Program-made: the position numbers and the translations under genes
The notes under the pieces: generated by a model
Told to the model about the DNA's origin: nothing
Database searches by the model: none
Seen by the model: the letters and a program-made list of their open reading frames with translations, nothing else
In this document: one piece after another, positions 13,390 to 55,049 of the stretch
How the letters are laid out: each line of letters begins with the position of its first letter
Numbering within the stretch: the first letter of the stretch is position 1
Source: Polytrichum commune
Lineage: Eukaryota > Streptophyta > Polytrichopsida > Polytrichales > Polytrichaceae
Assembly: GCA_950295325.1 (NCBI GenBank)
Contig: OX485807.1
Location: 39,898,440-39,962,439, forward strand
Direction: 5' to 3'
DNA: 64,000 nucleotides

Positions 13390-14475
13390 TAGCCTTACCC
13401 ACTTTAACATAACCTTTAAGGTAATATGTGATGCCTTCATGGTTCGTATAGATGCGAATCTTTATCAAAAAAGGAGACCAATACTTTTTGAAAGTTTAAA
13501 GCTATCCCCTACGGAAAGGAAGTATACCACTAGAGAACATGAACTTATAGTGATTTTTGACACCTTATGCACTTGGCATTGTTATTTAGAAGGTGCAAAT
13601 TATGTGGTAGTTACATATTACAACCCTCTCACATACTTAAAGTCACAACATAATTTATTAAGGCGTCAGGCATGATGGTAGAGTATTTGGAACAACACTT
13701 TACGTACATGTCATAATACAAGCCATGCACATTAATATTGCAGACCCTTTGAGTCACAACCCTCTAGGTGGTGATAATTATATGTTGAAGTCTTAAATCA
13801 TGATCTCTTTGGGATCTGTAGATGCTAGGTGAAAAACCTTACTAGCTAAAATCTTTTAATGTTGAGCTATGGAGAGATGGTTGTAGATGTCTCAAAGGGA
13901 GATCCCAAAGTGCTAACAAATGAAGTGTGTAGAGATCATGAGTGCACCAATGAATATTTGGTTGCTAGAGAACATATGATCATTTTAATTCATTATAGCA
14001 TGATATGCATAATCCATGGTTCATGGATTTGTATAACATTTCAAAATCAAATTTCAAGGATGGCCTTTGGTGGCATTATGATGGAATTGTAATATTTAAC
14101 AAATCGAATTTGGGACATATAAAAGATTGCATTATCTATGACCATCATGATTTGCTGTATAGTGGTATCTCTGAGGCGTTTAAGAAGATTCGGACTTGTT
14201 TTTAGTGGCGAAATATGAGAGATGTTGGTTAGAGATACGTGAATGCTTGTAATATTTTTCAACTTTGCAAAACCCCTACTACCAAATCTAGTGGTTTGTT
14301 GCAACCCTTACAAATACATGAGTGGAAGTGAGAATTTGTAAACATAGACTTCATCATCAGTCTTACTCCTACTAAACAAGGATATAATGCAATCTATTTG
14401 TGTGTTGATTTATTGACCAAGATAGATCATTTTATGTTGACCACGACAACTATGACCATTGAGGACATGACATGA
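13390..14475 (+). pseudogene. Ty3 chromovirus pol remnant, part 1 (RNase H and integrase start)
   Basis: 13439-13675 reads as RNase H: 'RPILFESLKLSPTERKY', 'HELIVIFD', 'WHCYLEG', 'PLTYLKSQHNLLRRQA' match the usual order of this domain, with the first catalytic Asp context degraded. 14005-14475 then gives the integrase zinc-binding and core start in shifted frames, including 'CNIFQLCKTPTTKSSGLLQP', 'FIISLTPTKQGYNAIYLCVD' and 'LLTKIDHFM'. Stops and frameshifts make it a pseudogene. It is cut at 14475 by the giant element and resumes at 34784 with the same target bases CATGA. Confidence 0.85.
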
Positions 14476-15326
14476 TGTACACCATCCCAGCCTCCAAGCA
14501 GCCAGGTAGGAGAGACGAGCACCGAGAAGAGCAGATAACGAGGGCCGCGAGGGAAGAGCACTGAGAAGAGCAGAGGACGAGGGCCGCGAGGGAAGAGCAC
14601 CGAGGAGCAGGCGGCCATCAGAGCAGCAAGGCATCAGCAGCGAAGGAGGAGCCGGGTATCGGAGGAGAAGGAGAATGGCAGCGAAGGGAGCGGGTATCAT
14701 GGACAGCTCGAGCGAGGAAAGGGGGACAGATGGCAGCCCAGGGTCGAAGACCGGTGAATGGCCGAGGACCGGCTTACCCGGTTATATAGGGAGCATGGGA
14801 GCGCACCAAGGCGGCCCGGGAACGCGGGGAGCGCACGGGAACGCACCGAGACGGCTCGGGAACGAAGGGAGCGCACCGGGAACGCACCGAGAGCCGGGAG
14901 GAGTGAACGACACCGGGAACGTCGTCATCAAGCCGGGAACGGACAAGCAACTAAGTAGGGTAGGATAGTTAGTTGCTAGTGAACACCTAAGCAAGGGTAG
15001 ATGAAGGACATACCTAAAAGGGATGAAAGTCCTTTTTAGATGAACATAAACTATTCCCTTTAAATGAATAGTTGCATTCCGGATGAAGGAGATCCATGGA
15101 TGGTAACCGTACCGAGAGGCACATCTAGGTTAAGCCAAGAAATCCAACGAATGAACTTCACAAGTACATTTTACATTCGGACATTATAACTGCTGTAAAT
15201 AGATCCGGGCAGCCTAAAATTAGACTGTAACCGGATACAGGGATAAAATTAGCCTGAAATAAACATGTGGCATTAGGGGAAGTTAGGACTAACCGCCACA
15301 TCTAATTAAAGATAGATTTTGAACAC

Positions 15327-15334
15327 TATATAAG
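15327..15334 (+). promoter_or_regulatory. Probable LTR TATA box (5' LTR)
   Basis: TATATAAG stands in a short AT-rich context about 850 bp into the LTR, with GC-balanced sequence on both sides. It is the only strong TATA word I see in the LTR. Transcription would start near 15360, placing the CCGAG/CTCGG repeats in the RNA leader. This is inference from sequence only. Confidence 0.5.
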
Positions 15335-15427
15335 AGGCCAAACTTAAGGCACCTAATACACTTCATTTGAACACGCAAACTCTACATGAGTGTCGGAGCC
15401 TCTAGCACTCTCTCAAGCTAGTACATT

Positions 15428-15690
15428 TAGCCGAGGTTTTCGTGCCCTAACTCGGAGGGCAATCGAGCTAGCATCGCAATTAGCCGAGGCATTCGAGCCC
15501 TAACTCGGAGGGCATTGGAATATTAATGCGAGTAGCCGAGGCATACTTAAGCCCTAACTTGGAGGGCATTGGAGACAATCATGCACGAAGATAGCTAGCC
15601 GAGGCAAATACATACCCTAACTCGGAGGGCATTCTAAAGTGTTAAAATATTTAGCCGAGGTTCTCAAATCCTAACTCGGAGGATATTAGC
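15428..15690 (+). repeat. Five-unit TAGCCGAGG...CTCGGAGG array in the LTR (5')
   Basis: Units start at 15428, 15481, 15533, 15596 and 15652. Each has TAGCCGAGG, a 9-14 base variable part, then CCTAACTCGGAGG (unit 3 has CTTGG, unit 5 AATCCTAACTCGGAGG). CCGAG and CTCGG of one unit can pair, giving a row of small hairpins. The identical array is at 33369-33631 in the 3' LTR. The stems are kept while the loops vary. Confidence 0.85.
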
Positions 15691-16845
15691 ACATGTTACT
15701 ACACTAAGGCAAATTGGTCAGAGCTTCGGATTAAGTTTGCTCCGGTAACTAAGACCTTTGACGAAGGAGAATTTCGAGCCGAAGGACCCGAAGGGAAATA
15801 ATTACAGAGAGGAGGAAATCTCATTCGGCGGTACACTCGAGTTAATCCCCGACCTCAAGCCGGCCAAGTAAGATAAATTATTACAGTAAAAGCCCAAGTC
15901 ACTCATATTTGAGGAAGGTAAGTTGTGGGCTTACCGGCTTACCATCACGTCATACCGGGTATGACTAGATACTAAATTATTACGCGGTGCCAAATCCAAT
16001 TCAAAGGGAATTAGCCTAAGGGGATTTCAAAGCATCTAAGGGGAACACTTGGGGAAATTTAGGCCATGAGTTTAATACCTCATAAATGAGGGTGATAATA
16101 ATCAAACATCTTTAAGTGGAAATCGGTTTACCATATACATTAGAATCAACAAGGATTCTAATCCCTCAAATATTCTCAAGTGAATTTGGAATGTTGAAGG
16201 ACCAAGGATACCATCAGAACAATATAATCAAGGTTAAAGAGGCAAGATGATTCTCAAGATTTTCATAATGTTAAAGAATATGTTTTGAACTAGAAACTCT
16301 TTATGAAGACATTCTCGGAATATTCTTAGAAAGTAATGAAGATTAGATGCATTCGAACCATGAAAGATATTGTTTGCAACATTTAGAGTTTCCCTTGAAA
16401 CACTTAACCTCGACATTAGGATTTCGGGGAACATAATCTCGAAAACCTAAGGCACTTTCTCCTTGGAGATTTATAAAAAGGGATCTTCAAATACAACATT
16501 CCGGAATTGAAGAAATAAGATTATCTTGCGAGATCTTTCAAACCATGAAAGATGCAAGAGCGAATAGATGATTAAGAACTAAGGAAAGTAGTTTCTTAGA
16601 GAGCACTTTAATATTAGATTTCGGGGAACATAAACTTGTAACCTCAAGTCAACGATTCCAAGAGGATTTCAAAAGCAATAAATTAAAGATCACAAGAATT
16701 AGTCAACAAAGAGTTAACGGACACCTTCACAAGTTTTGGAAACTAAGAGAATCTAATTTTGGTGGGAGTAACTTCCATGTAAACCGGTCAGCAACGGGTT
16801 ACACCGTCTAAGTTTGCTGAGGGTTTGAAGGTGACCTCGACATTT

Positions 16846-16863
16846 TGGCGACCATGCTGGGGA
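16846..16863 (+). other. Primer-binding site (tRNA-primed)
   Basis: TGGCGACCATGCTGGGGA begins three bases after the 5' LTR. Its reverse complement ends in GGTCGCCA, i.e. a tRNA 3' end with G before CCA. It differs from the tRNA-Asp-type site TGGCGCCGTTGCCGGGGA seen in many plant Ty3 elements. An arginine tRNA is a reasonable guess but was not checked. Confidence 0.75.
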
Positions 16864-16951
16864 TTCGCCACATGGACGTTACACTTACCTAGATTAGAAG
16901 ATAAAATTTACAACATACAATATTTGGGAGTAAGTTGGATGGCAGGCGTCA

Positions 16952-17590
16952 ATGGAGAACATGTACTACCTATATTGTGGAAAACTCCAACAGGAGATGA
17001 ATGAGAGACGCAAATGGGAAGAAACCTTCGGACCACGGAAGCAAGATCGTATAGAGAGAGCGGTGCAACGGAGACTCGAACAGTTTAATCTCCGAGGATT
17101 CTACGTGCAAGGAAGCGAAGGAGGAGAAGAAGAGAACTCAAAGCAACAAGAAGTCTTGGCTTTGGGTAAGTGGCCATGGGATTATCCAAAGTATGATACC
17201 AGTCGAACAACCTTGAAGAAATGGGAAGGAACCAGGAGATTCCACGATCTCATGTGGGATATGCAGAAGATGTATGAAGACAAGGTCTGGCAATTACATC
17301 AAGAAAGAGAAATAGGATTCACGTACCGGTCACAATTTGAGAGAAACATTGCTGAGTTACCAGAGGAGCTGCAGGCAGTAATTTTCTCTAAGATATGGAA
17401 TGACGGAAGAGAAGGAATTAACGCCTATGTGTTAGGAGCAACGCGACATCGAGGTTACCATTACAAACAAGAAGGTTTGTTGTACGATTTGTATGTTAGA
17501 AAGATATTCTTACCTCTGTATGGTGGTTTGCATGGTAGTGTGGGGAACTTGAATTTGGGGCAGGAGCAGGAGCAAGAAACAAGAACTTAA
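16952..17590 (+). CDS. ORF1 of the giant element, function unknown
   Basis: 212 codons from ATG to TAA, beginning about 110 bases after the 5' LTR and ending 115 bases before gag, in a different frame from gag. The protein is hydrophilic, rich in Glu, Arg, Gln, Tyr and Trp, with a charged helix-like N-terminus (about 1-60), a Trp/Tyr-rich middle (WPWDYPKY near 74) and a possible amphipathic part around 95-150. There are no Cys-His motifs, no signal peptide and no membrane segment. I do not recognise it. Extra ORFs upstream of gag are known in Ogre elements of the Tat branch, which fits the position, but I cannot claim homology. A separate polypeptide expressed from the full-length RNA is the simplest reading. 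Confidence 0.75.
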   Translation: MENMYYLYCGKLQQEMNERRKWEETFGPRKQDRIERAVQRRLEQFNLRGFYVQGSEGGEEENSKQQEVLALGKWPWDYPKYDTSRTTLKKWEGTRRFHDLMWDMQKMYEDKVWQLHQEREIGFTYRSQFERNIAELPEELQAVIFSKIWNDGREGINAYVLGATRHRGYHYKQEGLLYDLYVRKIFLPLYGGLHGSVGNLNLGQEQEQETRT

Positions 17591-17705: not shown

Positions 17706-20700
17706 ATGGTTGATCATGAGGATACATCTAGTACGAGAAGTACATCACCAACTCCTAGAGAACAGGAGGCAGAGAAGAAGCATGTGGAGCGCATGCATTC
17801 CAGAGAAGACCGCATAAGGCGGACTGAACAACTCAAGAGAGAAAGAGAAGAGAGGTACGCTAGGCGTACAAGACAAAGAACTACAGGAAGTGAAGAGAGC
17901 CGATACGCCTCTGAACCACCGGCAGTAGGTTCCCACACCCCTAAGCCCAGCCACCATAGAAGTCAAAGTGAAGGAGGAGGTAATGGTGAGACAAACAAAG
18001 GACATGAAGACTTGGATGAAGAGAACTTGAATCAGGGAGAAAACGAGGAAGATGAGGACGATCTGATAATAGGTACCCCTCTTGGAACCTATGTGTTGAG
18101 AACAAAAGGTACAGGTAAAAACACGGGTACACATACCCCAGTAGATAAAGCGCAGGACAACACCCATCAAGGAAACACGGCCGAGGAAAATCTTTTCAAC
18201 CCAAGGAGTTGGGAGAAATTGAAAAGAAATTTTGAAGAACAATTCAGCTTTGAAGACTCCGGCTACTCTGGAGAGAGCACACAAGATAACACGGACCAAG
18301 GAGTAAAAAGACCCATCAGTCAAGAAGAGTTTGACGACCTACGGAGGAAGTTTGAAGAGAAACTTAAGCAATTCCAAAACCTTGGAATTAACACCGGAGT
18401 CAGCCCACCACCAGCCAAGAGCAACAACCCACCTGGGGTTGGAAGCAACTTACCCAACCCAGTCAACATGGCCGCACAACCCCGAAGAACGAAGGTTCCC
18501 TTACCAACCTACAAGGGTAAGACGGATCCCGATACGTATATGCAAGAGTTCAACAACGTGTGTCTCGCAAATCAAGAAGACACAGACGCGATCAAATTAC
18601 AACTATTCCCTGTTACCTTAAAGAAACGAGCCTTGGAATGGTACTCCCAATTTGGCCCAAACCATTTTCCGGACTGGCCAAGTTTAGGAACTGCCTTCCT
18701 TATGAGATTCAGATCAAAGAAATCAGAGGGAGAAGTCATTGAAAGCCTAGGCTCCCTCAAACAGAAGAAAGACGAGACCGTCGAAGAGTTTTATGAAAGG
18801 GTTATGGTGGAATCATCAAAGATTCACCCTCAACCTAGTAATCAATTCAAGAAAGCATGGTTCCTTAATGGGTTGAAAAAGGAATACGCTAAGCACATTG
18901 ATTTAATGCCGACCGATGACTTGGATGAAGCGAAAGCATCGGCACGGAAGTTGGAATTGGGGCAGATGAGGAAAGGAAGATTCCTCGAGGAGAGTGATAG
19001 TGAAGAGTCAAGTGATGACTCGGAGGAAGAACGGCGAAAGAAGAAAAAAAAAACAAAGAGCAAGAAGACCAACTCAACTAAAGATGATATCAAGACTCTC
19101 CGAGAAGAGATAGAAGGATTGGCTTTGGGAAGCCGAAAATTCAGAACGGGCATAATTTGCCGGCGATGCCGAAATGAAGGGCACTATGTGCAAGAGTGTC
19201 AGATGAAACAATGTACGAATTGTAACAGCTTAACCCACAACACTAGCGAGTGTGTTTACGAACGGCATGAATCTCGGAGACCCCGAGATAGAAGATATGG
19301 GGTAAATCAAATACAACCCCAAACCAATCGAAGGCCAGGAGCGATCACTCCTAGGCGAGAAACGAATGACAGAAGGGTTCGGTTTGAACCAAGGATAGAA
19401 TTCAGAAGAGATGAGAGATCCCCCTTTAGGGAAGGCGATTACCGGCGGGAGGCGGGAGGCCCCTACCGGGGAAATGAATATCGCAAAGAAGAACGGCCCT
19501 ACTATCGGCCCAACGACAACTACAGAGATGATTTTAGGAGGGAAGGTTATTACCCCTACAAAAGCCAAGATTACCGGAGGGAAGATGGATACCCCTACCG
19601 AGGAGGCCCTAGAGGACCTATTAACCATGACAGGTATGAGTATACCAGAAGCCTGATGGACAATAACAACACCAAGGCAGCGCCGAGAACTGGGTTCACT
19701 GGCGGACCACAGCGAGATGGCAACCCCGACGAGTGTTTCTATTGTCATCAGAAGGGGCACCGGAAGCCGGATTGTCCGCACTATATTAAACATCAACATG
19801 AGTTGAATGGATTTAGAAACACAAAGCCGGCCGTGGGAGCCAACGCGGTGTCCCCCGCGGTTTGTGTAATGACGAGAGCCCAGCGGGCTGCAGCCGAGGA
19901 AGGCAAGGAAGATAGCGAAAGTGACGACAGTGATGATGACGATGATTCGAGCAGTGGCAGCTCTGAGGAGCAGGAAGACCACCAACAAAGAGATGAGAAC
20001 TCTGATGAAGAGAGAGATGTTGTGCGTGAGCCGGACGCACACCCCGATGAAGACAAAGAGGTGTTCAAGCAAGATGAACATGTTGATGATAAGGAAAAAG
20101 AAAGGCCGATAGGAGCCAACAGCGATGAATGGGAAGCTGATAGGAGAGTCCACCGGGAGGTGAGTAAAACTATCACGGAAATACAGGAGGAAGAGGGCGA
20201 AGCTCTACCCACGCCAGAAGAGTTCGCACCTTGGTACCCAGAAGAAGGAGAGGCAGGGAAGCCTAAAGAACGGAGCCCCGAGAAAGGAGGCGTCCCAAAG
20301 ACTACCCAGGCAAGGGTAGATGAGATCTTAGAGAATGTGATGAAGCACACAAAAGCAAATATTTCAATAGGGCAACTACTTGAGATAGCCCCCTATTGTA
20401 GGAAACGGGTAATGGCTGCCCTTACCAGCCAAGAAGGAACGTCTGAGAAACCGACCTCTACATACCAAGTGACAGCAAAGGCATTCGATGAGGAAATGCC
20501 TATGATATCGGTAATCATGAAGAATAAGCGAATACCGAATGCATTGATCGATGGTGGATCAGGAGTGAACATCATCACTGACACATTAAGAAGGAAATTG
20601 GGGCTCAAGAAGATAGAGCCTGCACCATTCACCATAAAAATGGCTGACCAAAGAAAGGTCATGCCCAAGGGAATCATCCGAGACGTACGACTCGATGTCG

Positions 20701-23700
20701 GCGGCATCGTGATTAGAACGACACTCACCGTCATAGACATGGTGAGCACCGAAGACAGTTACTCCCTTTTGCTAGGGAGGCCATGGTTAAAAGAGGCCCA
20801 AGCACAACATGATTGGCCCCTCAACAAATTGACCTTAACGCAAGGAGGAAACAAGGTAGAAATAAGCACCCAAAGAACGCCGGCCCTATCACCGGCCAAA
20901 AGACCCCTAAATTGGGAAGACTACGACTGGGAAATGGGATTGTCCGATGAAGAAGAAGCGATAGTCTATGAAGCCTTCCCAGAACTTCTACCCATGGGGA
21001 ACTTTGATTTGAAAAGCTTGAGAAAGCTAAGAGATCCAAGCTGCAACACAGTGAAGATTGATACTCACCACGAACCAGGAAAACTTGGAGCAAAAAAAAA
21101 AGAAACCGAGAAACCTCGGTCAAGAAAAGCAACGAGGAAAGAACAAGAAGCTATGGAGGAGAAACCGGTATATCCCTCCCAGTTTTACAAGGCAAAAGAA
21201 GGAGAGATAGAGATTGATCGCACCCCTGCCTTAGAAGCCGTCAAAGGGAAGAAAATAGCAGGGTGGACAGTTGAAGATGAAGACTTGGTGAAGAATTTAA
21301 ACTTAGGAACTCCGGAGGAGCCTAAGTTAGTCAAAATCGCGAAAGACTTGGGAGAATACGAAGCAAAGGTGAAAGAGCTACTCCTAAAATTCAAGGATGT
21401 GTTTGCTTTCACATATAAAGACATGAAAGGCATACCCCCTCATGTGTGCGAGCACAAGATTGAGCTGCAGCCGGAAGCCAAGCCGGTGCGACAAATGCGT
21501 TATAGGATGAATCCTAATTACGCAGCCAAGGTGAAGGAAGAAATCGACAAGTACTTGGAAGCAGGATTCATATATCCGGTGGATAAAACAGAATGGTTAT
21601 CCCCGATCGTGATTGTACCCAAGAAGAATGGGAAACTACGCGTGTGCGTAGACTACCGGAAATTAAACGCTGTCACCAAGGTAGATCCCTTCCCTTTACC
21701 TTTTACCGAATCCATCTTGGAAGCGGTTGCAGGACACGAAATGTACACGCTAATGGACGGGTACAGCGGCTACAACCAAATCATGATCGCCTTAGAAGAT
21801 CAGCTGAAGACGTCTTTCATCACCGAATACGGAGCGTTCGCGTACAGGGTGATGCCCTTTGGATTAATGTGTGCACCCGCCACCTTCCAAAGGGGCATGA
21901 TGAAGATATTTGCCGACTACTTAGACAAATTCATGAAGGTGTTTTTAGATGATTTTACAGTTTATGGAACCAAGGAAGACCACATTGAGCATTTGGAAAA
22001 ATGTCTCATTAAGTGCCGCGAAAATGGAGTAAGCCTGAACCTAGAGAAGTGTTTCTTCTGCGTCAATTCAGGGAGACTCTTAGGGCACGTGGTATGCAAG
22101 GAAGGATTGTTGGTGGATCCGAAGAAGGTGGAAGTCATAAAGGGATTACCTCCACCAACCACCGTACGAGGAATTTGGAGTTTCCTGGGACAAGCTACAT
22201 ACCATCGAAAATTCATATGGTTGTACGCTGAGATAACTCGGCCTTTGTACTTACTACTCAAGAAAGGAGAGAAGTACATTTGGACAAAATCTTGTCAAGA
22301 GGCCTTCAAAGAAGTGAAGAAAATGTTAACGACTACACCCATTTTGATAACTTCCAATTGGACCATGGAGTTCCACGTGCACTGCGATGCCTCGAACATC
22401 GCGATTGGAGCCGTTTTGGCTCAGAACATACACGGAGATAGAGATTCTCCAATTCATTACGCAAGTCGACTCTTAAACAATGCGGAGAAGAACTACAGTA
22501 CGACGGAGCGTGAAGCCCTAGCGATGATCTACTCGGTAGGCAAATTCAGGCATTATCTACTAGCGAACCATTTCGTTTTCTACGTGGACCATCAAGCCCT
22601 GATATACTTGGTCAATCGACCAGTGGTGTCCGGGCGCATTGCGAGATGGATGCTACTACTTCAAGAGTACGATTTTGAAGTAGTGTATAAGCCTGGTAGG
22701 AGCCATGTAATGGCGGACCACCTATCAAGGATAGAAAGCGGAGAAGACCCTTCAGGGGTACAAGACCAATTTCCGGACGCAAGTTTATTCATGGTTCACG
22801 TGCAACCATTCGAAGACTGGCGAGCACCTTTTATTGAGTACCTTACCCACGGAAGATTGTTGTCAGCTTTAGCTACCCCACGAGAGCAGAACAAGATCAG
22901 ACAACTGAGTGAACCGTTCGTTTTGGACAACGAAAAACTCAAGCGGGTCAGTATCTCCGGCAAAATACATGAGTGTGTTGCCGGTGACATCATCGAGGAA
23001 ATTATAAGTGAAGCCCACGAACACGAGGGTACTCATTCCAATCTTAATACCACATGGCACTACGTTTTGTGCACCCCATACTGGTGGCCTACTCGTAGGA
23101 AGGATGTTTTGGCATATTGCCAAGAATGCCCAGTATGTAAAATTGCAAACACAGGAGAGATGCACGACACATTTACCCCACCCGACACCGAAGACCACGA
23201 TGAATTACTACCAACTGAGTCTTTGGAAGCAGGGGAAAATTTGACAGGAGGAACAGAACCCGATTGGACAACCCCGTATGTCCAATACCTAACCCATGGA
23301 ACCAAATGGGAAAGTGACCTACCTGAGGTAGAGAAGCAATTGATAGCTCATCGCAGTCAATTCTTTATACTAAAGGAAGGGGAATTACATCGTATTTTCC
23401 ACAACAACGTCATCAAAAGATGCATGCCCGGGAAATACGTGAGAAGTTATATAAAGGCTTTTCACATCCGAGAGAATCGGCATTACTCAGTTGATGCCAC
23501 CCTGCAACTAATCTTACGAGAGCCATATTGGTGGCCCACCATAGCAGAAGATCTCTCGTTGTTCATTACATTGTGTACAGGATGTCGTGGAAAAGGGGAA
23601 GAGTTGGCCGCAGAAGGAGGCCCCCACGAACCTAGTACCGCAGAAAGTACGATACCTCATAATGAGACCTTCCACGACTGGAGGACACCTTTAATCGAAT

Positions 23701-25355
23701 ATCTGACTGATGGTGAGATCAAAGTAGGGACACTTACGCGAAGAGAACACGTAGAGGTTGTACGAAGGAGCAAGTTTTTCACAATGAAAGAAGGAAAACT
23801 TAAAAGATTGGAAAAGAACGGAAAGACCAGGGAGTGCATTGCAGGAGATCAAATAAGACAATGGGTAATGGAAATGCACATGTACCAACAAACACACTTG
23901 AACGCCGATCAAACCTGGTTTCGGGTTTCGAAAGGAAATCGGTGGTGGCCTACTATGGGAATTTGTGAAATACAAAATTTTATCAAGTATGATTGCCCAA
24001 CATGTAAGGAGCAATTTCAAAATAAGCCCCGAAACATAATGTGCGGGTCCATCGCCATACAACCACCTGACAACAAGGATTGGAGGAGGTTGTTAATAGA
24101 ATACCTCACATACGGGTACCTGAAAGGACCCCACATCTCGAAGAATCAATACAAAAGGATAACTCGACAAAGCCAGAAATATTTCATTGAAGAAGGAAAA
24201 CTAAAGAGGATATTCTCGGATGGAGACGTGAAAATATGTATTGCGGGACGTGAAATCAACAAATACCTGCAAGAATTACATGTTACGGAATCCGGGGAAC
24301 ATCTTAGCGAAGAAATAATGTGGCACCTAATCATGTTTGGGCCATACTGGTGGCCCACATGCGGAGCTGACATTAACAGCTTATGCCGTCGAAAATGTAC
24401 GGTATGCAACAACCAAGCAGAATTTTCAAAGGACCAGCAAGCACCGTCACCTCTGGACCGGAAAAACCTACTAAGAGGGATTGCTGCAGATTGGAGACGT
24501 CCTTACATGGAGTACCTAACATGCAAGGAAACCTTCGACCAAACCTTACCACCAGAAGTAAAAAGGGCGGTAACACAAAGCCATAAATACTTTGTGTTCA
24601 CCAACGGCACGTTACAACGGATACGCAAAGGAGGAAAGAGTAACCAAATATGTATACCTGAGGCTCAAGTTCCCAGGTACCTAGCCGAGACACATGGGGA
24701 AAGCGGACCCCACTTAGCCGCCATAGAAACGTGGAAGGCTGTGGCCACAGGAGCGTACTGGTGGCCAACATGGGGAAACGACGTGTGCAATCATTTAAGA
24801 TACTGCAAAATTTGCAGAGGAACGGAGACACCCGAGAAATGCCCCAGGGAAAATCAAAACTCATCTTCACCAAAACCAACACCTAACCCAGATTGGAGAC
24901 AACCGATTACCCAACGATTGAAGATTTTTGAGGAGTTGAACCACATTGGCACACATGAAGAGTTGGGACTACTCAGCCCCGATGCCGATACTTATTTCAT
25001 AACCGAGGATGGTTTGAAATATCGGTTACCTAATGAGGAAGTAAAAATGTGCGTGACAAGAGAGGAAGCGTTGGATTGGATAAAACGGATACATGAATAC
25101 CAAATGCCACATTTGACGAGAAAAGAGGTACTCACACAAATACACAAAGGCCCATATTGGTGGCCAACCATTTCTTCAGATGTGACACAAGTAATTGACG
25201 AATGTACACCATGTCAAAACCCCACAACATCAGGCCCCAAAATCGAGAACTACGGGACTATCTTCTTCCAGAATCAGAAAGCACATGATTGGAGAGAACC
25301 AATCATTCAATACCTCAAAAAACCCAATGGAACTAAGCGACTTCGCCTTCCATGA
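17706..25355 (+). CDS. Gag-Pol polyprotein: gag, protease, RT, RNase H and H2C2 module array
   Basis: 2,549 codons, open from ATG to TGA. Domains in rough residue order: charged N-terminal region (1-255); gag core (262-420, PTYKGKTDP... EFYERV); CCHC knuckles at about 485 and 504; a Tyr/Arg-rich low-complexity part (560-645) and a third knuckle at about 677; an acidic part (about 715-790); protease with active site LIDGGSG (about 945); RT (about 1250-1430) with FLDDF at 1412; RNase H (about 1550-1680) with CDAS; then integrase-type H2C2 modules starting with DW at 22815, 23262, 23676, 24078, 24489, 24891 and 25287. The frame is lost in module 7: after the A6 run at 25317-25322 this frame meets a TGA, while homology goes on one base over. 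Gag and pol are fused in one frame. It acts in particle formation, polyprotein processing, reverse transcription and integration. Confidence 0.93.
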   Translation: MVDHEDTSSTRSTSPTPREQEAEKKHVERMHSREDRIRRTEQLKREREERYARRTRQRTTGSEESRYASEPPAVGSHTPKPSHHRSQSEGGGNGETNKGHEDLDEENLNQGENEEDEDDLIIGTPLGTYVLRTKGTGKNTGTHTPVDKAQDNTHQGNTAEENLFNPRSWEKLKRNFEEQFSFEDSGYSGESTQDNTDQGVKRPISQEEFDDLRRKFEEKLKQFQNLGINTGVSPPPAKSNNPPGVGSNLPNPVNMAAQPRRTKVPLPTYKGKTDPDTYMQEFNNVCLANQEDTDAIKLQLFPVTLKKRALEWYSQFGPNHFPDWPSLGTAFLMRFRSKKSEGEVIESLGSLKQKKDETVEEFYERVMVESSKIHPQPSNQFKKAWFLNGLKKEYAKHIDLMPTDDLDEAKASARKLELGQMRKGRFLEESDSEESSDDSEEERRKKKKKTKSKKTNSTKDDIKTLREEIEGLALGSRKFRTGIICRRCRNEGHYVQECQMKQCTNCNSLTHNTSECVYERHESRRPRDRRYGVNQIQPQTNRRPGAITPRRETNDRRVRFEPRIEFRRDERSPFREGDYRREAGGPYRGNEYRKEERPYYRPNDNYRDDFRREGYYPYKSQDYRREDGYPYRGGPRGPINHDRYEYTRSLMDNNNTKAAPRTGFTGGPQRDGNPDECFYCHQKGHRKPDCPHYIKHQHELNGFRNTKPAVGANAVSPAVCVMTRAQRAAAEEGKEDSESDDSDDDDDSSSGSSEEQEDHQQRDENSDEERDVVREPDAHPDEDKEVFKQDEHVDDKEKERPIGANSDEWEADRRVHREVSKTITEIQEEEGEALPTPEEFAPWYPEEGEAGKPKERSPEKGGVPKTTQARVDEILENVMKHTKANISIGQLLEIAPYCRKRVMAALTSQEGTSEKPTSTYQVTAKAFDEEMPMISVIMKNKRIPNALIDGGSGVNIITDTLRRKLGLKKIEPAPFTIKMADQRKVMPKGIIRDVRLDVGGIVIRTTLTVIDMVSTEDSYSLLLGRPWLKEAQAQHDWPLNKLTLTQGGNKVEISTQRTPALSPAKRPLNWEDYDWEMGLSDEEEAIVYEAFPELLPMGNFDLKSLRKLRDPSCNTVKIDTHHEPGKLGAKKKETEKPRSRKATRKEQEAMEEKPVYPSQFYKAKEGEIEIDRTPALEAVKGKKIAGWTVEDEDLVKNLNLGTPEEPKLVKIAKDLGEYEAKVKELLLKFKDVFAFTYKDMKGIPPHVCEHKIELQPEAKPVRQMRYRMNPNYAAKVKEEIDKYLEAGFIYPVDKTEWLSPIVIVPKKNGKLRVCVDYRKLNAVTKVDPFPLPFTESILEAVAGHEMYTLMDGYSGYNQIMIALEDQLKTSFITEYGAFAYRVMPFGLMCAPATFQRGMMKIFADYLDKFMKVFLDDFTVYGTKEDHIEHLEKCLIKCRENGVSLNLEKCFFCVNSGRLLGHVVCKEGLLVDPKKVEVIKGLPPPTTVRGIWSFLGQATYHRKFIWLYAEITRPLYLLLKKGEKYIWTKSCQEAFKEVKKMLTTTPILITSNWTMEFHVHCDASNIAIGAVLAQNIHGDRDSPIHYASRLLNNAEKNYSTTEREALAMIYSVGKFRHYLLANHFVFYVDHQALIYLVNRPVVSGRIARWMLLLQEYDFEVVYKPGRSHVMADHLSRIESGEDPSGVQDQFPDASLFMVHVQPFEDWRAPFIEYLTHGRLLSALATPREQNKIRQLSEPFVLDNEKLKRVSISGKIHECVAGDIIEEIISEAHEHEGTHSNLNTTWHYVLCTPYWWPTRRKDVLAYCQECPVCKIANTGEMHDTFTPPDTEDHDELLPTESLEAGENLTGGTEPDWTTPYVQYLTHGTKWESDLPEVEKQLIAHRSQFFILKEGELHRIFHNNVIKRCMPGKYVRSYIKAFHIRENRHYSVDATLQLILREPYWWPTIAEDLSLFITLCTGCRGKGEELAAEGGPHEPSTAESTIPHNETFHDWRTPLIEYLTDGEIKVGTLTRREHVEVVRRSKFFTMKEGKLKRLEKNGKTRECIAGDQIRQWVMEMHMYQQTHLNADQTWFRVSKGNRWWPTMGICEIQNFIKYDCPTCKEQFQNKPRNIMCGSIAIQPPDNKDWRRLLIEYLTYGYLKGPHISKNQYKRITRQSQKYFIEEGKLKRIFSDGDVKICIAGREINKYLQELHVTESGEHLSEEIMWHLIMFGPYWWPTCGADINSLCRRKCTVCNNQAEFSKDQQAPSPLDRKNLLRGIAADWRRPYMEYLTCKETFDQTLPPEVKRAVTQSHKYFVFTNGTLQRIRKGGKSNQICIPEAQVPRYLAETHGESGPHLAAIETWKAVATGAYWWPTWGNDVCNHLRYCKICRGTETPEKCPRENQNSSSPKPTPNPDWRQPITQRLKIFEELNHIGTHEELGLLSPDADTYFITEDGLKYRLPNEEVKMCVTREEALDWIKRIHEYQMPHLTRKEVLTQIHKGPYWWPTISSDVTQVIDECTPCQNPTTSGPKIENYGTIFFQNQKAHDWREPIIQYLKKPNGTKRLRLP

Positions 25356-26889
25356 AGAATTGGGTACCTTACGAACGGAATTACCTCATTACTTTCTAAA
25401 GAAAGGAAAGTTGAAACGAAGTTTTGCAAATGGGCAATCGAGACTGTGCATCTCTCAAGAAAAGGGAATCGAATGGTTGACAACCATTCACAATCAACGG
25501 TACCCCCATCTTTCAATGGATGAGATGATTTTACAAGTCACCCAAGGGCCTTATTGGTGGCCCACAATTCCTCCGGACATTGACCATCTATGCAAGAAGT
25601 GTAGAGTTTGTTGGCCCAATGAAACCCCGGAGCATGTTGTTGACTGCAAAACTGTCACGATCAAGGATAAAGAAGAATCGGACTGGAGAACACCTTTCAT
25701 TGATTACTTAACACACGGGAGGCTGACCACGGAAGCCTCAACCACGCAGCGACAACAAATCGCCATACGAAGTCGTCCATACATGCTAAACCACAACGGG
25801 ACTCTGATAAAAGAAGGGCCCGATGGTATACGGAGGATATGCGTAGCTGGACCGATAACTACAGCCATTATCGCGGAGGCTCATGAAGGAATAGCTGGAG
25901 GGCATTTTTCGGCGAATATCACCTTACACAAGGTTTTAACTGCCTTGTATTGGTGGCCCACCATGAAAAGAGATGTCCATTTATATTGCACTCAATGCGA
26001 TATCTGCCAAAGGGTTGGCCCAAAAATCTCAACCAACCTCCAACCCTTACATCCCGCAATGCCCACGGAGGTATTTCAGAAATGGGGTCTGGATTTCATT
26101 GGACCGGTCAACCCGCCAGCCAAAGGCACCAAAAATCGGTACATAATCACAGCTACGGACTACACCACCAAGTGGGTGGAAGCCCGGGCTTTAAAAGATA
26201 ACACGGCTAAATCTACAGCCAAGTTCCTTTTCGAAGAGATAATTACAAAATTTGGATGCCCATTGGAATTTGTGAGCGACCAAGGCAGCCATTTTATCAA
26301 CGACACTATTAAGGTGCTCACCCAAGAATTTATGATTTTACACCGGAAGTCAACCACGTACTACCCGCAAGCCAACGGCCAAGCGGAAAGTACCAACAAG
26401 GTAATAAAGATTGCCTTAACCAAAATGGTGAACGCCAATCGAACTGATTGGGACACCAAGTTACACGCAGCACTTTGGGCCTATAGGACAGCCTATAAGG
26501 TCACGACGAAGCACACTCCATTTTCATTAGTATTCGGGACGGAAGCATTGTTACCTATGGCGTACCTTCATCCCGATGTTTATCAAAAGCGGAGTCAAGA
26601 AATTCATCCCATCCTAGAAAAGAGGATGGAACAACTCAAGGTGGTGGATCTCACTCGACATGAAGCTGAGGAGAACATGAAACACATGCAGATACTACGG
26701 AAGGAGAGACATGACAAGCCAAAGGTGAAGACACCATGTAAGCAGTGTGGTCACGGGATAACCAAGCTTCCACAGAAAGAGACCAAGGAACATGATACCA
26801 CGCAAACGAGAGGGGCAATTCAAACCTCTTCCAAAATCAAAGAGGCGGAGCCAACCCCTACAACCAAGACCCGATTTTATCCCGGATAG
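25318..26889 (+). CDS. Integrase part of pol (after the frameshift)
   Basis: Continues module 7 of the zinc array in the +1 frame, then module 8 (DW at 25681; H-x5-H, YWWPT, C-x2-C), which is the regular integrase N-terminal domain. The catalytic core follows with Asp at 26092 (GLDFIGP), Asp at 26278 (VSDQGSHF) and Glu at 26386 (GQAES); the second Asp and the Glu are 35 residues apart, the standard DDX35E. An ATG lies upstream at 25195, but that part is out of frame with the modules, so translation more likely arrives by frameshifting or the copy is broken. The frame stops at TAG 26887-26889, just where the C-terminal integrase domain should begin. All catalytic residues are intact. Confidence 0.9.
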   Translation, partial: KNPMELSDFAFHEELGTLRTELPHYFLKKGKLKRSFANGQSRLCISQEKGIEWLTTIHNQRYPHLSMDEMILQVTQGPYWWPTIPPDIDHLCKKCRVCWPNETPEHVVDCKTVTIKDKEESDWRTPFIDYLTHGRLTTEASTTQRQQIAIRSRPYMLNHNGTLIKEGPDGIRRICVAGPITTAIIAEAHEGIAGGHFSANITLHKVLTALYWWPTMKRDVHLYCTQCDICQRVGPKISTNLQPLHPAMPTEVFQKWGLDFIGPVNPPAKGTKNRYIITATDYTTKWVEARALKDNTAKSTAKFLFEEIITKFGCPLEFVSDQGSHFINDTIKVLTQEFMILHRKSTTYYPQANGQAESTNKVIKIALTKMVNANRTDWDTKLHAALWAYRTAYKVTTKHTPFSLVFGTEALLPMAYLHPDVYQKRSQEIHPILEKRMEQLKVVDLTRHEAEENMKHMQILRKERHDKPKVKTPCKQCGHGITKLPQKETKEHDTTQTRGAIQTSSKIKEAEPTPTTKTRFYPG

Positions 26890-27693
26890 CGAATTTTGTG
26901 GCATCTACGCCATAAGATACCCGGACCGGGTAAATTCAAGATCCGATGGGCAGGACCTTATCTAATTCAACAAGTCTATGATAATGGATCAGTGGATGTT
27001 ACCACCCTACAAGGGGACAGTTTGGGACGAGTCAACATGAACAAACTAAAACCTTACCAAGAGCCCGAAACAACTCAGGCTTATGCCTTACAAATTCTAG
27101 CATGCCACCTTTTAGAAACGGAAATACGAGCAAAACGAAATCCTTTATACAAAGGGACGAGTACTACATCAATTCCCATCACCCCATCTTCTCAATCAAA
27201 TACGGAAATCATTTCACATATTGGTTCCACCTCTTACCAAAGTCAAGAAACCTTAGATGCTGAAGATTTGGAAATACATAGGGTCATGCTAGAAGTATAC
27301 CAAATACATCCCTCAAAACAAGAGAATGTTCATCCAAAAGATACCTTAAACCCCATAAGGCACGACCAAAGGAAGGAGAAAGAAACCAACCTACATACCA
27401 TACAATTCCAACAAGAGAAAGATACCTTAAACCTCCTAAGGTATGACCAAAGGGATGGAAAAGAAACCAACCTACATACCATACAATCACAACAAGAGAA
27501 AGAGGCCTTAAACTTCTTAAGGCGCGACCAAAGGGATGGAAAAGAAACCAATCTACATACCATATCCCAATGGGAACCACTATCCAGTTCAAGAGAAGAT
27601 TCGGGAAGCGCAACACCTATGAGGGATACAACCCATGCTTACCCCGCCTTACCTGGCTTGGAGCCAACTGGGGTGGAGCCAACTCCCATATGA
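26890..27693 (+). CDS. Integrase C-terminal domain and repeat-bearing extension (after in-frame TAG)
   Basis: Directly after the TAG the same frame continues with LWHLRHKIPGPGKFKIRWAG and PYLI, the usual integrase C-terminal strand region (K-x-RWxGPY), then LKPYQ. No ATG lies near the start, so it is read-through or relic, not a separate gene. About 60 residues on, the match to known integrases ends. A hydrophilic extension follows with three copies of a 27-residue unit (81 bp each, at 27340, 27421 and 27502) containing LRxDQRDGKETNLHTI. The end is Pro/Gly-rich. There is no chromodomain. The extension's role is unknown. Confidence 0.8.
   Translation, partial: RILWHLRHKIPGPGKFKIRWAGPYLIQQVYDNGSVDVTTLQGDSLGRVNMNKLKPYQEPETTQAYALQILACHLLETEIRAKRNPLYKGTSTTSIPITPSSQSNTEIISHIGSTSYQSQETLDAEDLEIHRVMLEVYQIHPSKQENVHPKDTLNPIRHDQRKEKETNLHTIQFQQEKDTLNLLRYDQRDGKETNLHTIQSQQEKEALNFLRRDQRDGKETNLHTISQWEPLSSSREDSGSATPMRDTTHAYPALPGLEPTGVEPTPI
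27340..27570 (+). repeat. 81-bp in-frame tandem repeat, three units
   Basis: Units begin at 27340, 27421 and 27502, with 'ccttaaac' near the start and 'gaaaccaacctacatacca' in each. The period is a multiple of three, and the units stay in frame and free of stops, so the expansion was tolerated by the protein. Confidence 0.9.
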
Positions 27694-29732
27694 AAATTTT
27701 GAGAGAATAAAACCTAGGTAAAGACTCACCTGGGATAACCCACTGGCATAGTAAACCAGTTAGAGCCCTATTGCCCCACTAAAAGATGAAAGGAGTCAAT
27801 AGGAAATGTATTTACCCAAGCAGGCACAAAAGGGATGTAGCCGAAATAGATTTAACCTAGGATCATTAGAAGTCAATAGCAACCAAGTAAAGAAGAGAGA
27901 AGATTCCCAAATAAATAAATGACATGGGGACGTGTCACCACCCACCTTATCGAGTGACGACTCAACTAAGAAAACCTGTTTTTGTGAGTACATATTCCGA
28001 TGGAGTGATCTTACAGAAGGAGACTAAGTCCCAACCTTGAAGAACGGAGTTGATTATAGACACGGAGCACCTTTTAATAAGAGTCAATTATCAAACAAAA
28101 ATTTGCTTGGAAAGAAGAAACTTGATTGTACCAGGAAGGGTAGTACGGCATACTTAAACATATGCGGCCGGAATGTGGCAATTACTTAAAATTTTACTGG
28201 GGAAATATATAGGAACACGGGAATGGATGAACAGATAAGGAGGATTACGACGATTTCAATCACCAGAAGGAGTTTTAAAATATGGACTCAACTTAACCGA
28301 GACGGAAAATAATTGGGATATTTTTAACCTGATAAGCCACTTGAAGAGTATGAATGTGTCATAGTGTACATAGGTATAGAATCACCTAATTTTGGGACAT
28401 CTTTTGTAGCAATCACGTTGTTGTTCCCTAAAGGCAAAATATTATTTTTCCGTTCTGATAAAGAACGAATCAACCAGACTGATGAACAAATCACGGAAGA
28501 AGGATGGATGAATAAGTTTGGAGCTACTACCAAAGAACTATCCTTATTGGAGGACGAATAAATATGATTACTACCGTATAAGAAGAAATGCTACTAAGTT
28601 TACTGACGGCCAGAAAACGAGTGAATATCAGAAAAGTTTGATCTACAGGTGTGGCAAGTTGCATGAAAACATTACCCCAATTACAATTATCATATGAGAA
28701 AAGATCAGATACTATGAGAAGATAAGATAGTCTTGAACCTGTCAAAATTTTGGAATAAAAATTTTGGAATAAAAATTTTGGGCCGCAGATGAAGAAAGTT
28801 AAAACGCAATTACGATGACCAATTTAGAGCCTTTGAAGCGAAAGAGATGATTGTTTACTGCAAGCTCAATGTAATTGTCTCATATGACAACGGGTGAATA
28901 TAAAAATGAATACCGTCTCGACGGATGACGAAAAGAAGGAATGGAATCTGGAAAGCCAAACGATGGATGAAGTTCCAGAAGAGTTAAGTTGAATGAAATT
29001 TACAGGGATGAAGAAGTTTTCAGGAGTGAATGGAGTTTGATTTGAATAAAGGTCGAACACATGCAGACCAATAAATGATCACTTCAAGATCAGCAGAACC
29101 GTCGAATGGGAAGGTTAATTAAGTGAATTTTTTGCGTTCGTTGAATATAACTGGGCACAGCTGCGAATAACTTCCGAGGATTTCAACCAAGAACTGCAAA
29201 GCCATAATAAATATCAACAAAGACTGAATGTGTAGGAAACAAAATAACAAAGGCTAATTAAGATTATACACAACTCAGCCTAAGGAACAGGAATCAACTC
29301 CAATTTATTTTTATTGGAGGGGCCCACACAAGGTGAGCCCCAAAGAAAATGGGGATTCAACCCACCGAAGTGGGGAATCCCACGGAAGAGGAGGACTTAC
29401 GGTACCTACGAGAAACCACTCACACCCAGTTAGCAAGATAAGTAAAACAAAACTTACAGAAGTAAAAAAAAGGTTGAAGGGTAATACCTGGAGAAAGGTC
29501 GAGATGTCCAGCGTGGTACAGAACCTACAGGCAAAGGAAGCAAGCCAGCTGGAGCTTTCAAAACCTGAACACAAGAACCCCAACTGTCAAAGTTCAGCTG
29601 AACCTAAACCGAAGGAGTTGCAGAGTGAAGCCCAGCTCTCATACCGGCGCTCACACACGTAGCGGTTGCCACACCTGATTTCGGGAAGTTAGAGGAGTAA
29701 CAGAATTGCCTTAAGCAAGGAAGAGAGTCGCA
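27694..29732 (+). other. 2-kb spacer between pol and the 3' ORF of the giant element
   Basis: No open frame above about 110 codons. A 109-codon frame (29333-29662) and a 65-codon frame without ATG (28364-28561) are the longest on this strand and show no motif. There is a small direct repeat 'ttttggaataaaaa' at about 28748-28780. In related elements a spacer like this can hold splice sites for a subgenomic RNA; I see 'ttgcag'- and 'aacag'-type acceptors but cannot choose one. Confidence 0.55.
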
Positions 29733-32400: not shown

Positions 32401-32416
32401 GAGAGGGGGGATAAAA
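32401..32416 (+). other. Polypurine tract
   Basis: GAGAGGGGGGATAAAA lies directly before the 3' LTR. All bases but one T are purines. It is the expected primer for plus-strand DNA synthesis. Confidence 0.85.
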
Positions 32417-34783
32417 TGTACACCATCCCAGCCTCCAAGCAGCCAGGTAGGAGAGACGAGCACCGAGAAGAGCAGATAACGAGGGCCGCGAGGGAAGAGC
32501 ACTGAGAAGAGCAGAGGACGAGGGCCGCGAGGGAAGAGCACCGAGGAGCAGGCGGCCATCAGAGCAGCAAGGCATCAGCAGCGAAGGAGGAGCCGGGTAT
32601 CGGAGGAGAAGGAGAATGGCAGCGAAGGGAGCGGGTATCATGGACAGCTCGAGCGAGGAAAGGGGGACAGATGGCAGCCCAGGGTCGAAGACCGGTGAAT
32701 GGCCGAGGACCGGCTTACCCGGTTATATAGGGAGCATGGGAGCGCACCAAGGCGGCCCGGGAACGCGGGGAGCGCACGGGAACGCACCGAGACGGCTCGG
32801 GAACGAAGGGAGCGCACCGGGAACGCACCGAGAGCCGGGAGGAGTGAACGACACCGGGAACGTCGTCATCAAGCCGGGAACGGACAAGCAACTAAGTAGG
32901 GTAGGATAGTTAGTTGCTAGTGAACACCTAAGCAAGGGTAGATGAAGGACATACCTAAAAGGGATGAAAGTCCTTTTTAGATGAACATAAACTATTCCCT
33001 TTAAATGAATAGTTGCATTCCGGATGAAGGAGATCCATGGATGGTAACCGTACCGAGAGGCACATCTAGGTTAAGCCAAGAAATCCAACGAATGAACTTC
33101 ACAAGTACATTTTACATTCGGACATTATAACTGCTGTAAATAGATCCGGGCAGCCTAAAATTAGACTGTAACCGGATACAGGGATAAAATTAGCCTGAAA
33201 TAAACATGTGGCATTAGGGGAAGTTAGGACTAACCGCCACATCTAATTAAAGATAGATTTTGAACACTATATAAGAGGCCAAACTTAAGGCACCTAATAC
33301 ACTTCATTTGAACACGCAAACTCTACATGAGTGTCGGAGCCTCTAGCACTCTCTCAAGCTAGTACATTTAGCCGAGGTTTTCGTGCCCTAACTCGGAGGG
33401 CAATCGAGCTAGCATCGCAATTAGCCGAGGCATTCGAGCCCTAACTCGGAGGGCATTGGAATATTAATGCGAGTAGCCGAGGCATACTTAAGCCCTAACT
33501 TGGAGGGCATTGGAGACAATCATGCACGAAGATAGCTAGCCGAGGCAAATACATACCCTAACTCGGAGGGCATTCTAAAGTGTTAAAATATTTAGCCGAG
33601 GTTCTCAAATCCTAACTCGGAGGATATTAGCACATGTTACTACACTAAGGCAAATTGGTCAGAGCTTCGGATTAAGTTTGCTCCGGTAACTAAGACCTTT
33701 GACGAAGGAGAATTTCGAGCCGAAGGACCCGAAGGGAAATAATTACAGAGAGGAGGAAATCTCATTCGGCGGTACACTCGAGTTAATCCCCGACCTCAAG
33801 CCGGCCAAGTAAGATAAATTATTACAGTAAAAGCCCAAGTCACTCATATTTGAGGAAGGTAAGTTGTGGGCTTACCGGCTTACCATCACGTCATACCGGG
33901 TATGACTAGATACTAAATTATTACGCGGTGCCAAATCCAATTCAAAGGGAATTAGCCTAAGGGGATTTCAAAGCATCTAAGGGGAACACTTGGGGAAATT
34001 TAGGCCATGAGTTTAATACCTCATAAATGAGGGTGATAATAATCAAACATCTTTAAGTGGAAATCGGTTTACCATATACATTAGAATCAACAAGGATTCT
34101 AATCCCTCAAATATTCTCAAGTGAATTTGGAATGTTGAAGGACCAAGGATACCATCAGAACAATATAATCAAGGTTAAAGAGGCAAGATGATTCTCAAGA
34201 TTTTCATAATGTTAAAGAATATGTTTTGAACTAGAAACTCTTTATGAAGACATTCTCGGAATATTCTTAGAAAGTAATGAAGATTAGATGCATTCGAACC
34301 ATGAAAGATATTGTTTGCAACATTTAGAGTTTCCCTTGAAACACTTAACCTCGACATTAGGATTTCGGGGAACATAATCTCGAAAACCTAAGGCACTTTC
34401 TCCTTGGAGATTTATAAAAAGGGATCTTCAAATACAACATTCCGGAATTGAAGAAATAAGATTATCTTGCGAGATCTTTCAAACCATGAAAGATGCAAGA
34501 GCGAATAGATGATTAAGAACTAAGGAAAGTAGTTTCTTAGAGAGCACTTTAATATTAGATTTCGGGGAACATAAACTTGTAACCTCAAGTCAACGATTCC
34601 AAGAGGATTTCAAAAGCAATAAATTAAAGATCACAAGAATTAGTCAACAAAGAGTTAACGGACACCTTCACAAGTTTTGGAAACTAAGAGAATCTAATTT
34701 TGGTGGGAGTAACTTCCATGTAAACCGGTCAGCAACGGGTTACACCGTCTAAGTTTGCTGAGGGTTTGAAGGTGACCTCGACA
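32417..34783 (+). repeat. 3' LTR of the giant Ty3 element
   Basis: 2,367 bp, same length as the 5' LTR, and no differences found in the segments I compared along its length. It carries the TATATAAG at 33268-33275 and the five-unit hairpin array at 33369-33631. It ends CGACA, followed by the target duplication CATGA and the resumed chromovirus integrase. Confidence 0.96.
33268..33275 (+). promoter_or_regulatory. Probable LTR TATA box (3' LTR)
   Basis: Identical to the TATATAAG of the 5' LTR. In this position it could drive outward transcription into 34784 onward. Confidence 0.45.
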
Positions 34784-35850
34784 CATGATTATTTAGGAAT
34801 TATGTATTTAACTTACATGATATTATTCTTAAGATAATTAGTGATTGAGATGCGAGATTTACATATACATCTTGGCAAGAGTTGTACTATTTGTTAGGCA
34901 ATCAATTGGCCATGTCTACATCTTTTCATCATGAGACCGACGATCAAACACAAAGGTTATATAATGTTCTTTAGGTTATGCTTGGGCATTATGTGAGTCC
35001 TACTCAATATAACTAGGATGGAATTCTATCATTAGCCATTTTTTTCCTATAATAACTCGTGGCAAGAATTCATCAAAACAACCACTTCTTTGTTGAATTG
35101 CGGTCAACATCCTATAACTTATGTTGACATGAGGATCAACGAGTCACAAGTCCTAGTTGCAAGAGGCTTCGCCTTGCCTATAAAGAATGTTATTAGTAAG
35201 GCTAAGAAACATTTTTTGATAGCCCAACAATCGGCAAAAGTCCTATGCTCACACGAAGTGACGTGATGTGGTGTGTGAGGTGGGTTTAAAAGTTGTTCTT
35301 AGTACTTCCAACATTAAGTTGAAAATCCCAAGTTTGAAAAAGATTGCTTTATCACTGGATGGATCCACTTGAGATTGATATGAGAATTGGCATTGTAACA
35401 CACCGTTTTAAATTGCCATAGACTTTAAGAAGTTACAATATTTTCATGTCGCATTGTTGCCCTACAAGGCTAATGGCAAGGTAAAGCCTTTGCCACCACC
35501 AATCACTGAGAATCACGATATATCCTACAAGATGGAATGTATGTTGCAACATGAAGTTAGAGGAAGTTGTTCCCACCCTTGCAAATTCTACCTCACAAAG
35601 TGGCTTGGTTATGGGCTTGAGCATAACTCTTGAGAGCCTGAAGCTAATTTGAGTCATGAGGTATTCAAAGAATATTGAGACTCTATGGCTCACTCAAGTG
35701 AACGCCTATCACATCATGGTGTTAGACGTGAGAAGTTACCCAATGCTTTGCCTAAAACAATATCAGAATTCTCTTTCCTTAGATCTTTGAATAATTTTTA
35801 TGTTGGTTGATGGGTTTTACTTCTGAGTTGAGCATAGACGATCAAATCTA
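34784..35850 (+). pseudogene. Ty3 chromovirus pol remnant, part 2 (integrase end and chromodomain)
   Basis: Reading resumes across the giant insertion in the same frame when one CATGA is removed (EDMT before, LFRNYVFNLH after). Then come 'DARFTYTSWQELYYLLGNQL'-like words, 'FHHETD', 'YNNSWQEFIKTTPFLLNCGQ' and 'HPITYVDMRI', in changing frames. The C-terminus holds a chromodomain-like end (KFYLTKWLGYGLEHNSWEPE, near 35580-35645), which marks it as a chromovirus. Many stops and frameshifts. It ends just before the polypurine run GAGGAGGAGGAG at 35851-35862. Confidence 0.85.
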
Positions 35851-52467: not shown

Positions 52468-52476
52468 GTGGTAATC

Positions 52477-55040: not shown

Positions 55041-55049
55041 GTGGTAATC

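Follow-up and report, generated by a model that had tools for sequence, protein, structure and literature searches.

The window analysed here is a stretch of 64,000 nucleotides from Polytrichum commune (contig OX485807.1), and its central feature is a long terminal repeat (LTR) retrotransposon of 20,308 bp at positions 14476-34783 that belongs, by structure and domains, to the Ty3/gypsy group (Metaviridae). Between its RNase H and its integrase catalytic core stand eight zinc-binding modules in tandem, which are almost certainly multiplied copies of the integrase N-terminal unit, that is, an N-terminal extended domain (NED) followed by an HHCC zinc domain (together the N-terminal domain region, with the zinc domain also called NTD). 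The array is no artefact; it is an old and so far unexplained extension of the integration machinery. The element is laid out as follows, with positions counted along the window, the modules numbered from 1 to 8, proteins of relatives given as P numbers, and open reading frame shortened to ORF and reverse transcriptase to RT.

14471..14475, no strand: left target-site duplication, CATGA, matching the five bases after the 3' LTR (34784-34788)
14476..16842, plus strand: 5' LTR (TG...CA), identical to the 3' LTR
16846..16867, plus strand: primer-binding-site-like stretch just inside the 5' LTR, by sequence
16952..17590, plus strand: 212-aa ORF between the 5' LTR and gag, without a Pfam match
17706..22814, plus strand: the portion of the 2549-aa gag-pol ORF that encodes gag, a putative protease region, RT and RNase H (matches to Pfam Retrotrans_gag, RVT_1 and RT_RNaseH, and weakly to a zinc knuckle)
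22815..23261, plus strand: module 1 (NED and HHCC) and linker, from profile, PF17921 and ligands
23262..23675, plus strand: module 2 and linker, from profile, PF17921 and ligands
23676..24077, plus strand: module 3 and linker, from profile and ligands; least conserved among relatives
24078..24488, plus strand: module 4 and linker, from profile, PF17921 and ligands
24489..24890, plus strand: module 5 and linker, from profile, PF17921 and ligands
24891..25286, plus strand: module 6 and linker, from profile, PF17921 and ligands; its counterpart lost zinc ligands in two relatives
25287..25680, plus strand: module 7 and linker, from profile and AlphaFold2; the reading frame changes within it
25681..26055, plus strand: module 8, the ordinary integrase NED and NTD, from PF17921, tree, profile and AlphaFold2
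26056..26889, plus strand: integrase catalytic core with its D, D, E motifs, followed by the first part of the C-terminal region up to the stop (Pfam rve; matches to prototype foamy virus and Ty3 integrases)
26896..27693, plus strand: integrase C-terminal domain and low-complexity tail, after the stop and in the same frame; 96% identity to P0008 over 69 aa
29733..32375, plus strand: 880-aa extra ORF 3' of pol, with no Pfam match above cut-off
32402..32416, plus strand: polypurine-tract-like stretch before the 3' LTR, by sequence
32417..34783, plus strand: 3' LTR, identical to the 5' LTR
34784..34788, no strand: right target-site duplication, CATGA, matching the left copy

Both LTRs begin with TG and end with CA, they differ at 0 of 2368 aligned bases (a count that includes one shared flanking A), and the 5-bp duplication CATGA lies on either side. 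Since the LTRs are identical and the target-site duplication is intact, the insertion would be recent. Pfam matches run in the order RT and RNase H, then integrase (rve), whose D, D and E catalytic motifs are all present. No Pfam protease family was matched at an E-value of 0.1 or better in the scanned ORF pieces, and a DGGS motif, which may mark the protease, is visible in the ORF translations. At the same threshold no chromodomain was matched in the C-terminal ORF after the integrase, and an archaeal-type second RNase H, the mark of the plant Tat clade, was found in none of the seven ORF pieces scanned with Pfam, which lie outside positions 27694-29732. Each LTR holds two short tandem arrays of 39- and 40-bp units (14510-14892 and 32451-32833), the tail after the integrase C-terminal domain contains 2.8 tandem copies of an 81-bp unit (27337-27564), and the 880-aa ORF looks coiled-coil-like by eye.

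To delimit the array, the whole window was scanned in six frames with a profile built from the modules. Matches begin at 22815, 23262, 23676, 24078, 24489, 24891, 25330 and 25681, where the match at 25330 is the rest of the module that starts with DW at 25287, and the scan returned no further module; the eight modules of the original prediction thus stand at the starts it gave. The first 13 positions of module 7, which lie in another frame from 25287, are not significant when scored alone (3.4 bits, E 8.1), and the start was assigned from its place, from the DW and from relatives that are open there. Every module follows the plan of a whole integrase N-terminal unit of ∼110 aa plus linker: a segment starting with DW, a strand-rich extension, H-x5/6-H, WWPT and C-x2-C. 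The zinc ligands are intact in 8 of the 8 window modules, as is WWPT; the earlier claim that every metal-binding residue is kept therefore holds for this copy, while losses occur in some relatives (P0003, P0004, P0009 and P0012). When each module was compared with a profile of the other seven, scores reached 80-112 bits, against at most 9.9 for the best of 999 shuffles per module. Singly, seven of the eight are also matched by PF17921, with E-values of 7e-11 (module 1), 1.6e-6 (module 2), 4.9e-5 (module 4), 4.5e-7 (module 5), 1.3e-6 (module 6), 1.3e-4 (module 7) and 1.7e-15 (module 8); five of the eight pass its curated cut-off, modules 4 and 7 falling below it. These seven matches speak against the refuting condition that the modules fail to match the H2C2 profile. 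Module 3 gives no PF17921 match alone and yet, judged by its fit to the other seven, clearly belongs to the set. Modules 2-7 share only 25-39% identity with module 1, and a comparison of the linkers for protease sites yielded no usable candidate.

The window's copy is broken at two places. The main gag-pol ORF (17706-25355, 2549 aa) stops within module 7; the remainder of module 7, module 8 and the catalytic core are read in a second frame, which is interrupted by one further stop ahead of the integrase C-terminal domain. In nine relatives (P0002, P0003, P0004, P0008, P0010, P0012, P0017, P0023 and P0130) module 7 can be read throughout, and the site before the C-terminal domain is open in P0008 and others. 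The frame of P0001 also departs within module 7, over its last 20 residues and slightly beyond the break of the window copy. Programmed frameshifting at the module 7 break was considered and set aside, as nine relatives are open through module 7, with P0001 ending inside it. That breaks are present despite identical LTRs may mean that this copy was mobilised by proteins of intact copies, that the breaks are recent, or that they are sequencing errors.

A protein search with modules 1-6 returned 11 proteins, the top one with 62% identity over 90% of the query. P0009 runs from RNase H through modules 1-3, P0007 from module 1 to the start of module 4, P0001 from the end of module 1 to the start of module 7, P0002 from the end of module 3 to module 8 and the core, P0003 through modules 4-8 and the core, P0004 through modules 4-8 and the start of the core, and P0008 through modules 5-8 and the core to the C-terminal domain. 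No single record spans all eight modules; the overlapping pieces from separate records jointly cover all eight in one constant order, and the array is accordingly not private to the window copy. One scan each of viral contigs and genome contigs returned no relative. A second family (P0022 and kin) carries at least four modules, the last of which is 80% identical to module 8.

Beyond these families, elements with fewer modules provide the background against which the array can be viewed. Among the best 120 of 1772 matches, 28 bear the name of the fern Adiantum nelumboides and 3 that of the liverwort Riccia sorocarpa. Modules in relatives were counted from profile matches with E-values up to 0.001, a threshold that can miss decayed ones, and in the 71 of 97 core-bearing relatives that do not show the RNase H tail motif upstream the counts are minima. 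Of the 26 that show this motif, 22 carry a single module and the other 4 carry two, so the premise that a single domain is normal is mostly right, with a minority of two-module exceptions. Among the matches listed, six two-module proteins are named Adiantum nelumboides (P0064, P0066, P0070, P0071, P0082 and P0095). As a separate observation, two-module elements have a retropepsin-like stretch at an odd place, 3' of the integrase: among the three two-module proteins scanned (P0025, P0028 and P0082), it is matched in P0025 with E-values of 6.8e-6 and 8.2e-6 and is weak in the other two.

The history of the modules was followed in a tree of 115 of the 147 extracted modules: multi-module proteins and the window contributed their full set of 90, and the single modules 25 out of 57. 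Each window module clusters with its position counterparts from relatives, and modules 1-7 share one side of a branch with the upstream modules of the second family (Shimodaira-Hasegawa-like approximate likelihood-ratio test, SH-aLRT, 100; 99.5 in a reduced tree). Module 8 clusters with the single domains of ordinary elements, and from this grouping we infer that it is the original domain and that the preceding seven are derived. The eight are therefore like units in their common plan, as first described, but not in their standing. The three upstream modules of the second family fall beside module 4, in the group of modules 2 and 5, and beside modules 6 and 7, with moderate support (SH-aLRT 81-86); because they fall beside specific array positions, several duplications probably took place before the two families separated. 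The two-module lineage forms its own clade by catalytic core (12 rows, support 100/99), amid single-module elements, and includes five of the six Adiantum proteins, all but P0066. The fewest changes on the core tree are two, i.e. two separate gains; in the approximately unbiased (AU) test, which used 56 rows for the modules and a careful core tree of 49 of 98 rows, a single origin of the array and the two-module duplication was not rejected (p 0.108 for the core, 0.149 for the modules). On the placement of the cores, this two-module, fern-containing lineage probably duplicated its unit separately from the array.

The array has changed much faster than the parts of the polyprotein around it. 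Members of the family share 90-93% identity in RT-RNase H (2 records), 90-99% in the catalytic core (12 records) and, in six of seven records, 88-99% in the C-terminal domain, with 70% in the remaining one. Over all counterparts, module 8 is 81-95% identical and modules 1-7 are 45-88% identical, the minimum being a partial module 3. The same is seen within individual proteins: compared with the window, P0008 has 99% identity in the core, 95% in module 8 and 75-84% in modules 5-7; P0003 has 98% in the core, 92% in module 8 and 60-77% in modules 4-7; P0009 has 90% in RNase H and 55-75% in modules 1-3; and P0011 has 93% in RT-RNase H and 78% in module 1. Not all residues of the array take part in this change. 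In the counterparts of modules 1-7 (counted without the second-family proteins P0022, P0127, P0128, P0129, P0014 and P0020, whose modules are not position counterparts), 179 of 186 zinc-ligand sites are conserved, against 3228 of 4696 sites (69%) for other residues. With the same proteins left aside, columns that are near-invariant (at least 85%) among the window's eight modules keep their residue at 706 of 770 sites (92%), hydrophobic columns at 460 of 626 (73%) and the remaining columns at 2164 of 3372 (64%), while in module 8 the same three classes stand at 92, 86 and 89%. As far as these residue counts can tell, the fold of the array is protected, and its other residues either vary freely or answer to changing demands. 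Together with the grouping of positions across relatives, the ligand counts agree with the original proposal of an old duplication followed by constraint instead of a recent slip.

Predicted and solved structures were used to ask what the unit is. AlphaFold2 models module 8 as two helices, three strands and three helices, and the modelled part of module 7, without its DW segment, as one helix, three strands and three helices. Confidence, given as the predicted local distance difference test (pLDDT), is 85-91 for module 7 over model residues 21-90; for module 8 (model residues 121-220) it is 88-96 in eight of ten ten-residue blocks and 69 and 78 in the other two. The model of modules 1-6 has a mean pLDDT of 40.4 and was too poor for a fold search. 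Searched as one piece, module 8 plus core matches the solved integrases of prototype foamy virus (PFV) and Ty3, with PFV the best; the VIA-align rows lie mostly on the catalytic core (model 246-409) and say little on module 7. A profile of modules 1-7 matches PFV integrase at E 9e-7 and Ty3 weakly (0.063). On these sequence and profile matches, the modules are homologous to the N-terminal regions of PFV and Ty3 integrases.

Retroviral and Ty3 integrases have one N-terminal zinc domain per chain and build assemblies with many copies of it by multimerising. In sequence and fold matches, Saccharomyces Ty3 integrase (PDB 7q5b) has the same order of N-terminal extended domain, HHCC, core and C-terminal domain. 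It differs in having one N-terminal unit instead of eight, and the domain scheme in PMC8632968 includes a chromodomain, of which none was found in the window element. PFV integrase (3l2q and others), the best solved match both of module 8 plus core and of the profile of modules 1-7, likewise has one unit. Two-module Ty3 elements, among them the six Adiantum nelumboides proteins, have a duplicated N-terminal unit before the same kind of core, but only two units. Elements of the Tat clade are large. Those described in PMC6317226 resemble the window element in carrying additional ORFs, and Ogre and Retand also have one more module placed between RNase H and integrase; that module is an archaeal-type RNase H, none of which was found in the scanned ORFs of the window element. 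Outside integrases, the HHCC unit occurs in ZBTB11, GIN1 and NYNRIN, though as a single finger in host genes (PMC5384227). No open-licence paper among the matches listed deals, by its title or the start of its abstract, with H2C2 or HHCC domains arrayed in a retroelement.

Apart from the retrotransposon, the window holds a fold-back-element-like structure at 52476-55041, in which an inverted repeat of ∼795 bp (95% identity) has a 28-bp minisatellite (53288-53959) between its arms. A fragment of a hAT transposase dimerisation domain lies at 50468-51040, a Rieske-domain ORF at 56420-56917 (Pfam E 2.7e-22; dicamba O-demethylase is among the oxygenases that it matches in the PDB), and a 176-bp inverted pair with 84% identity at 35865-36040 and 44815-44990, which is similar to a miniature inverted-repeat transposable element.

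As to what the array does, we tentatively favour reading it as an old, fast-evolving, fold-constrained and multivalent integrase appendage that is most likely host-facing, serving in target or chromatin docking. The seven extra units would fold as independent zinc-stabilised beads on linkers, sitting at the front of integrase or of a protein released by the protease, and would give integrase many weak contacts simultaneously. The partners would be chromatin or transcription factors of the host at target sites, and the array would do the docking for which other Ty3 elements use a chromodomain or the single N-terminal extension. Because the array outpaces RT and the core while its fold-defining residues stay, its contacts may be with the host and not with the element's own conserved parts, and unit surfaces that change fast would fit host partners that change as well, in an element where no chromodomain was matched. 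There is a precedent in the Ty3 N-terminal extended domain, which, in the account given in PMC8632968, stabilises LTR contacts and reportedly interacts with TFIIIC. The logic would be comparable to that of tandem zinc-finger proteins, but with an integrase fold as the unit.

Several points weigh against this docking array. Relaxed constraint would equally speed divergence of the array, and selection was judged on protein sequences only. The array may or may not stay joined to integrase after proteolysis, and the array-bearing records may be copies from few species. Zinc ligands have been lost at five sites in module 6 of P0003 and P0004, at one in module 1 of P0009 and at one in module 7 of P0012. 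In the second family, three of four records (P0127, P0128 and P0129, as opposed to P0022) have lost the Cys pair of one upstream module, which in these sequences is decay of a single bead inside the array.

This decay suits a second explanation, in which the array arose by serial duplication and persists since misfolded modules would harm the polyprotein, so that only the fold is kept, either as constructive neutral evolution or as a spacer. We regard it as somewhat unlikely, although it predicts the combination of fast divergence and retained fold residues that is seen here, as well as the loss of ligands in single modules. Moreover, ligand conservation alone is no proof of a binding role, because a ZBTB11 with a point-mutated HHCC domain is worse than one with none: in the experiments reported in PMC5384227, all four HHCC ligands are needed for function: mutation of any one abolishes rescue, but a protein from which the entire domain has been removed can still rescue. 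What this explanation does not readily accommodate is that the ∼955 codons of modules 1-7 are present at full number in overlapping records, though deletion would be free, and that several modules are probably older than the divergence of the two families.

A third possibility, marginally less likely than the second, is that the array is a self-scaffold, in which one chain supplies the NTD contacts for which retroviruses multimerise their integrase. It would do so in the integration complex, or else in the particle, with the 20 kb RNA as what it organises there. The integrase octamers of human and simian immunodeficiency viruses (HIV-1/SIV) stack into filaments on RNA through contacts between their NTDs; RNA is touched by a lysine of the NTD, and mutations in this domain cause severe defects, yet the RNA contacts lie mainly in the C-terminal domain (PMC13102720). 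The window element is very long at 20.3 kb, and the net charge of the module cores is positive in modules 2 to 5 (+2 to +5) and module 7 (+1), but negative in module 1 (-3) and module 6 (-7). Internal contacts of this kind should also evolve as slowly as the element's own parts, whereas modules 1-7 diverge far faster than RT and the core. Finally, that the array was produced by misassembly, or belongs to a single dead copy alone, is highly improbable and is refuted by the related records: the window copy is broken twice and P0001 also ends inside module 7, but independent records share the array order, nine of them are open through module 7, and modules 2-7, only 25-39% identical to module 1, could not have been made by an assembler from one unit.

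With somewhat greater reserve than for the docking array itself, we suggest that a fern-type Ty3 clade may have made the integrase N-terminal domain into a repeat protein, with seven diverging zinc beads in host-facing docking, and that a related lineage re-duplicated the domain separately. Fern retroelements appear little surveyed, judging by the plant LTR retrotransposon survey PMC6317226, whose main text is without the words fern, zinc, H2C2 and HHCC in the form consulted. The element described here is a case of a mobile element building a repeat protein from its own integrase, and one chain that encodes eight units is a natural test of the non-catalytic roles of this domain, namely target choice, nucleic-acid scaffolding and host contacts.

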